Positions 4,381 to 6,975 of a stretch of DNA of 21,649 bases are shown here, one piece after another; the stretch's first letter is position 1, and each line of letters begins with the position of its first letter. Both the position numbers and the translations under genes were made by a program. The DNA comes from Candidatus Poribacteria bacterium. GTDB lineage: Bacteria; Poribacteria; DTPJ01; WJIO01. Location: positions 1-21,649 of the forward strand of contig WJIO01000067.1 in assembly GCA_014730235.1 (NCBI GenBank), written 5' to 3'. Below the pieces are notes generated by a model. It saw only the letters and a program-made list of their open reading frames with translations. It was not told the DNA's origin and did no database searches.

Positions 4381-5262
4381 CTATCCTTCATAAACCATTT
4401 TATGCATTACAGGATATGTTCTGGTACGGGCTCCAACATTAATTTCATTGAAATGCTTACTTAATCCCATGATAAGCTCGGTGCATCGCACCTGATCCGG
4501 ACAAAACGTCTCTATACACCAGTGCCCCTGGGGAGATTTTTTTATTGCCTGAGTCAGCATAATGTTTCCCAAATCAAGCTTTTTCGTTAGCTCCTCAGTT
4601 TTATTCGTTATAGAATCATAAATCCCCTCTAAATATTTTGTAAGTTGTTTCCCTGTTTTATGAAGACTGAATAATTTTACCACGCAGATGTCAATAAAGG
4701 TGAAGAAGTGGATAGCGTTGTCCTCATTTTTTCCCGTCTTCTGAAATACATGTTTGCCTGCAAAATTTGTTATATTTCCGGAGTATTCCAGATATCTAGC
4801 CAGATCTGCTGAAAAATTTTCATCATCTACATTTCGCTGAACTATTATTACGTCGAAATCCCCCCCTAACACATCATAGGCGGAGAAATTTTCGTGGTTT
4901 TCTTTTTTTAACTCCCAACCAATACTTCTTGAATGGAGAAATTCGGACTGCAAGTTCACCAGATAAATAACCACATCAGGATTATCCTTCTCATTTTTTG
5001 CGCAAATAACTTCCTGCATAGGTACATCAACAGGTAAGTCATTGAAGTATCGAAGGGAATCCTTTCCAGTTAATTCACCGGTTCTCTGAAGTATGTCAAA
5101 TGGGATTTTTCTTTCTCCAGACTCATACTGAGAAAGCGAAGCCTGACTGATGCCCAGTTTGCCAGCTAATTTTGTCTGCCTAAGACCTGCTTCCTCTCGC
5201 GCTTTTCTGATAAGATGTCCGATTATCTCATCAAGTTTATTGTCTCGTCTATGAATTTCCAT
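4381..5262 (-). CDS. XRE-family transcriptional regulator with uncharacterised C-terminal region
   Basis: A 293-residue protein. Residues about 16-70 form a Cro/C1-type helix-turn-helix (IRKAREEAGLRQTKLAGKLG, then ISQASLSQYESGERK), which indicates sequence-specific DNA binding. The ATG at 5262 has a strong upstream site, GGGGAAGGA, at a suitable distance. The remaining ~220 residues match no family I can name. The stretch YDVLGGDFDVIIVQ (129-142) and the C-terminal segment from about 246 to the end are reminiscent of ferredoxin-like ligand-binding domains of the Lrp/AsnC type, but this is a visual impression only. Cysteines at 249, 254 and 260 are closely spaced. The gene diverges from argG across 465 bp. 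A 14-bp perfect palindrome lies 31 bases upstream of its start and may be an autoregulatory operator. Targets and effector are unknown. Confidence 0.85.
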   Translation of the reverse strand: MEIHRRDNKLDEIIGHLIRKAREEAGLRQTKLAGKLGISQASLSQYESGERKIPFDILQRTGELTGKDSLRYFNDLPVDVPMQEVICAKNEKDNPDVVIYLVNLQSEFLHSRSIGWELKKENHENFSAYDVLGGDFDVIIVQRNVDDENFSADLARYLEYSGNITNFAGKHVFQKTGKNEDNAIHFFTFIDICVVKLFSLHKTGKQLTKYLEGIYDSITNKTEELTKKLDLGNIMLTQAIKKSPQGHWCIETFCPDQVRCTELIMGLSKHFNEINVGARTRTYPVMHKMVYEG

Positions 5263-5306: not shown

Positions 5307-5354
5307 TATAATATTTATAATATCATAAATAAATTGATAAGTAAAGTATATCAT

Positions 5355-5582
5355 AAACATGACCAAGCATAAATTTCTTGTCCGTGAAAACTTTGGCTCA
5401 TCCGGTTTAAGTATGGTTATAATTTGAAAATTCCCTCAGCTTGTCATTCCTGCTTCCGCAGGAATGACAGCGTGAAGAAGTTTCTTATCTTTATCACACT
5501 GAACCCGGAAGGGCCAAACTTTATTTGTTACTCCGTCCTTCGCAATAACGCAGGGATGTAAAATTTATGCTTGGTAAACATG
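5355..5582. mobile_element. MITE-like foldback element with 15-bp terminal inverted repeats and 7-bp flanking duplication
   Basis: The element proper is 5362-5575 (214 bp). It begins with ACCAAGCATAAATTT (5362-5376) and ends with the exact reverse complement, AAATTTATGCTTGGT (5561-5575). It is flanked on both sides by AAACATG (5355-5361 and 5576-5582), which looks like a target-site duplication. Inside the termini, 5388-5415 and 5495-5522 are also imperfectly complementary, so most of the element can fold back. It contains a perfect hairpin (5443-5468) and an imperfect REP-like palindrome (about 5528-5550), and no long ORF. It is probably non-autonomous, and the source transposase is not in the window. 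Confidence 0.65.
5443..5468. repeat. GTCATTCCTGC/GCAGGAATGAC perfect hairpin, copy 2 of the palindromic repeat
   Basis: Two exactly complementary 11-base arms, GTCATTCCTGC and GCAGGAATGAC, are separated by TTCC. The sequence is related to the palindrome at 4348-4372. It forms the near-central hairpin of the foldback element. GTCATTCC...GGAATGAC palindromes are a common dispersed-repeat type in bacteria; family membership here is by resemblance. Confidence 0.75.
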
Positions 5583-5645: not shown

Positions 5646-5674
5646 TTGACATATTATATATTTACTGATATAAT
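5646..5674 (+). promoter_or_regulatory. Consensus sigma-70/sigma-A promoter of argG
   Basis: TTGACA at 5646-5651 and TATAAT at 5669-5674 are separated by exactly 17 bases, matching the housekeeping consensus perfectly. The expected start site is near 5681, leaving a leader of about 47 bases before the argG ATG. The surrounding 5583-5700 is almost entirely A/T. No ArgR-type box with both half-sites was recognised. Confidence 0.85.
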
Positions 5675-5727: not shown

Positions 5728-6975
5728 ATGTCTGATTTACTTAAGACTGCATTGAGTAAAGTTGAGAGAACCAGTGTTCCCAAAGTGAACATTGCCATTC
5801 TGGCATATTCAGGTGGGCTGGATTCCTCTTTGGCAGTTGAGTTGCTGCGCAGGAAATATAAGGCAGAGAAGATAATACCGATAACAGTTGATGTTGGTCA
5901 AGGTGAAGAGGAAGTTCAGCTTGGAATTGACAGAGCAAAGATACTGAATATCGAACCTATAATGATTGATGCCAGAGACGAATTCACCGAGGAATGGATG
6001 GCCAAGGCCATAATGGCAAACTCTGATTATATGGGTTATCCAGTCTCTACTTCTATGACGCGTCAATTGATCGCCCGCGAAGTAGCTGAAAAGGCTGTCG
6101 AGGTAGGAGCTGATGCTCTTGTTGAAGGTTCAACTGGAAAGGGTAATGACCAATACCGAATGCACAATGTCTTTACCATGTTCGCACCTGGCAAAAAAGT
6201 CATAGCACCAGTTCGAGATTTTGACTTTACACGGGCAGAAGAAGAAGCTTTATGCCGGGAATGGGGTGTTCCTGTGGAAGAAGTTATATCCGGCGGCGAT
6301 GACAAAACCATGTGGTGCAGGTCAATCGCAAGCGGGGCCATTGACTTAAATATGGAAATACCTGACAGTGTCTGGATGTGGTATAACCCTCCGGAGCAAG
6401 CACCTGATAAAGCAGAAATTATTGAGATTGTTTATGAAAAGGGTATACCTGTAGAATTAAATGGCAAGAGTATGCTTCTCAAGGAACTGGTTCCAACTCT
6501 AAACGAGAAAGCAGGGGCACATGGAATAGGTATGATTGATATATTTGAAGAGGGAATCATGAATCTGAAGTCGCGTGAACTTTATGAGGCACCAGCGGCA
6601 GCAGTTATCATGAAAACACACCGCGACCTTGAGCAAATGTGCCTGACCAAAGAAGAGTTGATGCTTAAGAAGCAAATCGAGCAGAAATGGGGTTATATGG
6701 TCTATCATGGACAGTGGTTCCATCCGCTTAGAAAAGCCCTTGATGCTTTTATTGCCGAAACTCAGGAAATGGTATCCGGTACTATAAAGGTAAAAATGTA
6801 TAAAGGAAACGCGGATATAACCTATAGAGACTCTGTAACTTCGCTTTTCTCTCCTGAGATTAGATCTATCAAATCAAGCGGATTCAGTCAGCCTATGTGT
6901 GCCGATGCAGCCAAGATCAGAGGCCTTCAATACGAAATTCTTGCTAAAAGAGATCATATAGCAAAGAGTCAATAA
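5728..6975 (+). CDS. argG: Argininosuccinate synthase
   Basis: This 415-residue enzyme condenses citrulline and aspartate with ATP to argininosuccinate, the penultimate step of arginine synthesis in the cytoplasm. The ATP-pyrophosphatase loop is SGGLDSS at 28-34, where many family members have SGGLDTS. Further family signatures are GSTGKGNDQYR, the APVRDF region, MWCRSI, GIPVELNGK, the IENR-like segment (IFEEGIMNLKSRELYEAPA) and YHGQWFHPLR. Length is normal, though about 26 residues precede the loop, somewhat more than the usual short lead. AGGAGG at 5714-5719 sets the ATG. It stands alone: no argH, argF or carbamoyl-phosphate genes are adjacent. It has a consensus promoter just upstream. Confidence 0.93.
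   Translation: MSDLLKTALSKVERTSVPKVNIAILAYSGGLDSSLAVELLRRKYKAEKIIPITVDVGQGEEEVQLGIDRAKILNIEPIMIDARDEFTEEWMAKAIMANSDYMGYPVSTSMTRQLIAREVAEKAVEVGADALVEGSTGKGNDQYRMHNVFTMFAPGKKVIAPVRDFDFTRAEEEALCREWGVPVEEVISGGDDKTMWCRSIASGAIDLNMEIPDSVWMWYNPPEQAPDKAEIIEIVYEKGIPVELNGKSMLLKELVPTLNEKAGAHGIGMIDIFEEGIMNLKSRELYEAPAAAVIMKTHRDLEQMCLTKEELMLKKQIEQKWGYMVYHGQWFHPLRKALDAFIAETQEMVSGTIKVKMYKGNADITYRDSVTSLFSPEIRSIKSSGFSQPMCADAAKIRGLQYEILAKRDHIAKSQ

Follow-up and report, generated by a model that had tools for sequence, protein, structure and literature searches.

What is the short foldback sequence that lies between a gene for an XRE-type regulator and argG in a Candidatus Poribacteria genome, how did it get there, and does it matter to its neighbours? 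The window, that is, the whole stretch of DNA analysed (21,649 nucleotides), had been described in an earlier note as carrying at this place exact 15-bp terminal inverted repeats (TIRs) within AAACATG repeats, the layout of a transposed element. Both the coordinates and the 100% complementarity hold: the left TIR lies at 5362–5376 on the forward strand (ACCAAGCATAAATTT), its reverse complement at 5561–5575 on the reverse strand, and AAACATG abuts both element ends exactly, as a left (5355–5361) and a right (5576–5582) 7-bp target-site duplication. The MITE enclosed by them measures 214 bp (5362–5575, forward strand), with its "A" end on the left and its "B" end on the right. Its first 23 bp from 5362 read ACCAAGCATAAATTTCTTGTCCG, while the right TIR continues inward as TACATCC, which resembles the 3′ end of a transposase-bearing copy on contig C45.

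The MITE contains no ORF of at least 80 aa and is non-coding, and an Rfam search of it returned only chance matches below threshold, with no family above it. Its folding energy as single-stranded DNA is −47.9 kcal/mol, whereas shuffled sequences average −20.5 (z −8.3). The nested REP-like palindromes that had been noted inside it are represented by the GTCATTCCTGC..GCAGGAATGAC hairpin, written out as CTTGTCATTCCTGC-TTCC-GCAGGAATGACAG, at about 5438–5470. This inner hairpin is conserved across the MITE copies in an alignment of 16, and its loop switches between CTTTCG/CTTCCG and CGAAAG from copy to copy (window 5438–5470; alignment A1, columns 84–108), a pattern that looks as if the tip of the hairpin had been inverted repeatedly.

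Is the element alone in its genome? The genome from which the window comes (451 contigs, 5.53 Mb in all) contains dozens of alignable copies. With up to two mismatches allowed, the TIR gives 133 + 129 matches, versus 5 + 5 for a reversed-pattern control; a tighter end pattern, which answers the call in the earlier note for a search for further copies, gives 128 + 130 versus 1 + 1, and the genome holds about 130 copies of the MITE. In most of them the constant TIR consists of the outer ∼12 bp (NCCAAGCATAAA) followed by an A/T-rich stretch, and the outermost base, N, differs between copies in the alignment of 16. The same alignment resolves subfamilies of 214 and 198 bp, with a mean column identity of 89%. 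Element lengths are 25 bp (two abutting ends), 196–216 bp, and up to about 335 bp. In some copies the ends are in tandem, the first TIR being followed 25 bp further in by another (ACAAAGCATAAATTTCTTGTCCGGATCCAAGCATAAA; L006:1475–1500 and L213:1489–1515).

The pairing of ends and the duplications were counted on fetched loci, a set of listed places rather than every copy. Among 102 candidate end pairs, an exact 7-mer duplication is present in 38 and a duplication with one mismatch in 8 more (46 in total); none extends to 8 bp, and randomly paired flanks give an exact 7-mer in 0.3% of cases. A paralogous empty site is also available: the copy at L187 is nested in a different repeat, and at L030 and L091 this repeat is uninterrupted and has TTTCTTG only once (79% in an 85-bp stretch that spans the junction). 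This second repeat, with flanks GTGTGGTAATGACA .. CATTACCACACTTAAC, spans L187:1424–1505 and 1799–1886 and has uninterrupted relatives at L030, L091 and L189. Palindromes of only 25–32 bp (ACCAAGCATAAAATTTATGCTTGGT) keep 7-bp duplications as well (L152:1496–1520, L057:1491–1515, L040:1484–1515); they are either minimal mobile units or deletion remnants. The view that this is a transposed, MITE-like element is borne out by its multiple copies, its 7-bp duplications, the paralogous empty site of another copy and a transposase that shares its ends.

As for this transposase, a search for which had also been proposed, it is found in decayed copies and in one intact relative. The decayed copies on contigs C162, C41 and C92 start with (A/C)CCAAGCATAAATTTCTTGTCCGGA, run into the N-terminus of a transposase and break off where other repeats interrupt them; on C45 a transposase C-terminus is followed by a ACCAAGCATAAAATTTACATCC end. 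These copies match about 22–23 bp of each MITE end (left: C162, C41 and C92; right: C45), and the first 23 bp of the window MITE are identical to the 5′ end of the copy on C162. The DNA that interrupts the copies on C162 and C92 is IS3-like, and these interruptions (L044:1900–2075 and L063:1560–1918) coincide with contig ends; the copy on C41 (L062) breaks off at a different point. No intact transposase with exactly the MITE ends (CCAAGCATAAATTTCTTGTCCGG / CCAAGCATAAAATTTACATCC) was found in the 451-contig assembly, which may be because the IS3-like interruptions fall at contig ends.

The intact relative is a 1,511-bp IS on contig C354 (L064), with ends TCCAAGCATAAAAATAATGTTCCCTT / AAGGGAACATTATTTTTATGCTTGGC and the 7-bp duplication CGATTTG. 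It has CCAAGCATAAA ends, its inner TIR sequence differs from that of the MITE, and it encodes one protein of 442 aa. This protein passes the cut-off of PF06782 (UPF0236) and, among NCBIfam models, scores best with ISKra4 (153 bits, cut-off 205) and ISLre2 (145 bits, cut-off 200). Its homologues on cyanobacterial plasmids, at 22–30% identity, are annotated as ISKra4 family transposases. When aligned with members from the same phylum, it displays the motif D ... D(2)H and has D in place of E at the third catalytic position. Inspection by eye of the transposase fragment on C45 likewise gives D at this position. Judged by the common ends, the mobilising family is likely UPF0236/ISKra4–ISLre2-like, i.e., a prokaryotic Mutator.

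How far does the element extend beyond this genome? Of the 84 genomes of the phylum that were compared, the one containing the window is alone in having an amplified TIR, and the right-end pattern has no exact match in viral contigs. In other genomes of the phylum there are ISKra4-like elements that have GGGTGTGTAAAGTTTTTG at their ends (L114, L117, L119, L121, L123). The internal hairpin has a different distribution. The search took in one other genome of the order, G001, in which the TIR is not amplified and the GTCATTCCTGC..GCAGGAAT hairpin is abundant without CCAAGC ends (L065–L074); the hairpin is therefore probably a repeat module in its own right, which the MITE has captured. The element is like REP/BIME repeats in being intergenic and folding back, and in an inner GTCATTCCTGC hairpin that resembles the repeat in G001. 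Unlike them, it has TIRs, target duplications and a linked transposase, and the REP-like hairpin is an internal module only.

Where do the copies land? Of the 46 copies with duplications, just 2 fall within an ORF of at least 100 aa, and many flanks display TTGACA at a constant distance. Promoters of the sigma70 type were scored outward from each junction with hand-set, E. coli-like weights, so that all promoters discussed here are predictions. The 46 duplicated copies give 92 flanks, and in 29 of these the −35 box starts exactly 15 bp from the junction; offsets 11–14 and 16–20 have 0–3 matches each, and the background at 45–270 bp is 0.33 starts per position (Poisson p about 1e−45 at offset 15). 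Counted by element, 34 of 46 have a promoter at offset 12–19 on at least one side, whereas intervals of equal width farther out average 2.6. The spike does not depend on the choice of duplicated copies: among 207 ends taken without this selection, 60 have the −35 box at offset 15, versus 5, 14, 5 and 4 at offsets 13, 14, 16 and 17 and a background of 1.2 per position. The promoter lies on the side of the A end in 11 cases and of the B end in 11, with no orientation bias. The three shortest copies (25–32 bp) are 14–15 bp from a −35 box, and three decayed parents have TTGACT at 14, 15 and 17 bp. The flanks of the C354 IS contain no clear promoter at the ∼15-bp spacing. Insertion is targeted to a fixed distance upstream of predicted promoters. 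Insertion ∼15 bp upstream of promoters allows the element to spread widely without breaking genes.

At the window locus, the XRE-type HTH regulator gene (4381–5262, reverse strand; 293 aa; PF01381) and argG, for argininosuccinate synthase (5728–6975, forward strand; 415 aa; PF00764 and PF20979), diverge from the MITE. The predicted XRE promoter, TTTACT-N17-TATTAT (5317–5345, reverse strand), is a moderate match (score 7.8) whose −35 box starts 16 bp from the left junction of the MITE; the predicted argG promoter, TTGACA-N17-TATAAT (5646–5674, forward strand), matches at 12 of 12 positions and begins 64 bp past the right duplication. These positions place the MITE between two divergent promoters, the XRE one being nearer and both undamaged. 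The earlier note was correct in saying that the element separates a regulator from the promoter of its neighbour, and the tighter relation is to the regulator's own predicted promoter. Its suggestion of terminator activity found no counterpart, as a search for terminator-like sites at the XRE–argG locus found none. The nearest named argG, at 76% identity, belongs to a MAG, Candidatus Poribacteria B28_G17 (L094), and suggests a Poribacteria-type MAG as host. No XRE gene adjoins it there, and its intergenic DNA cannot be aligned; none of the close relatives retains XRE and argG as neighbours.

These features can be compared with systems already described. TnGBS and ISLre2 elements insert 15–17 bp upstream of −35 boxes (PMC3942029), and 13 ISs of the ISKra4 group with near-perfect inverted repeats have the same promoter-upstream specificity, in both orientations (PMC3942029, Guerillot et al. 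2014). The system described here shares with ISLre2/TnGBS (p-MULT 3) and the ISKra4 group (p-MULT 4) a UPF0236-type transposase with a D ... D(2)H motif and an insertion spike 15 bp upstream of a predicted −35 box, and its MITE, like ISKra4 elements with near-identical inverted repeats, is inserted in both orientations. It differs from ISLre2 and ISKra4 elements in several respects. The duplications of both the MITEs and the C354 IS are strictly 7 bp, whereas published p-MULT direct repeats are 8–9 bp (PMC3942029), and one variable base lies between the duplication and the TIR of the MITE. The third catalytic residue aligns as D, and the NCBIfam scores lie under both cut-offs. The ends of the C354 IS and of the MITE are CCAAGCATAAA; for other ISKra4 copies of the Poribacteria type, GGGTGTGTAAA is the usual end. 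With bacterial MITEs the element shares its short, non-coding nature, TIRs, target duplication, multiple copies and ends common to transposase-bearing elements; unlike bacterial MITEs in general, it is targeted upstream of promoters with single-base precision and has 25-bp palindromic copies that still carry duplications (L152, L057). In the literature searched, which covered few subscription journals, links between ISKra4/ISLre2/TnGBS and MITEs, or between MITEs and Poribacteria, appear only in passing mentions, and no miniature element with a promoter-seeking habit was found. This is a new MITE family, set apart by the 7-bp duplication, the CCAAGC ends and the 25-bp minimal copies.

All of these points are most probably explained by a non-autonomous MITE that is moved in trans by an ISKra4/ISLre2-type transposase and delivered upstream of promoters. 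The copies, duplications, common ends and promoter spacing can be read directly from the genome. A prokaryotic Mutator-like DDE transposase (ISKra4/ISLre2-type, UPF0236) would recognise the NCCAAGCATAAA ends and move the MITE in trans to sites next to sigma70-type promoters, with a 7-bp staggered cut at a fixed distance of about 15 bp upstream of their −35 box. At the window locus a copy would have landed in this way upstream of the XRE promoter, between the divergent promoters, leaving both intact. This group of transposases would be responsible for the mobilisation, and the spacing may arise from recognition of promoter DNA or of bound RNA polymerase, by analogy with the proposal made for TnGBS (PMC3942029). 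For XRE and argG the insertion may be near neutral, or its effect may be limited to the contacts that the XRE promoter makes through its UP element and with upstream regulators.

Could the pattern arise in other ways? Perhaps there is no true targeting: insertions into genes are purged by selection, and the survivors are intergenic and hence near promoters. Purifying selection would also leave 44 of 46 sites outside ORFs of at least 100 aa, but it predicts a broad enrichment, whereas a single-base spike is observed that persists without selection for duplications; this alternative is already largely refuted by the offset-15 spike and deserves hardly any credence. Or the mover is an unrelated, unassembled transposase, e.g., of an IS family with 7-bp duplications, and the likeness of the C354 ends is convergent. 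A draft assembly without an intact parent having exactly the same inner ends leaves some room for this, as does the difference between 7 bp and the p-MULT repeat length; the CCAAGCATAAA ends and 7-bp duplication that the C354 IS has in common with the MITE, the decayed copies that carry 22–23 bp of each MITE end, and a promoter spacing that fits ISKra4/ISLre2 specificity make it very unlikely.

There is also a functional reading, in which the element is retained between XRE and argG as a regulatory unit, such as a terminator, an RNA structure or a protein-binding insulator. Its strong foldback, the conserved inner hairpin and the location between divergent promoters all suit such a role. On the other hand, the locus lacks a terminator-like site, no Rfam family scores above threshold, about 130 copies adjoin unrelated genes, and the element is confined to one lineage, so that this reading appears improbable.

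Returning to the preferred reading of trans-mobilised MITEs, the assignment of a transposase and the targeting to a fixed distance from promoters are what the present analysis adds to the earlier note. More tentatively, and with somewhat less than even confidence, a distinct prokaryotic Mutator-like group may be envisaged, with 7-bp duplications, CCAAGC ends and an apparent D-D-D transposase; its MITEs would carry only 12–13 bp ends and be delivered upstream of promoters with single-base precision across the genome, and the 25-bp palindromes made of two ends may themselves be mobile.

What does this mean for the biology of these elements and their host? The promoter-upstream targeting of TnGBS, ISLre2 and ISKra4 elements can pass to tiny non-coding derivatives, which can then insert about 130 times in a single genome and yet spare its genes. 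Minimal end sequences are now available for probing how the transposase reads a promoter, a point on which the 2014 superfamily study offered a proposal only (PMC3942029). Because a predicted −35 box lies 15 bp from many of the copies, the aligned insertion sites serve as a partial, natural promoter map of an uncultured lineage.
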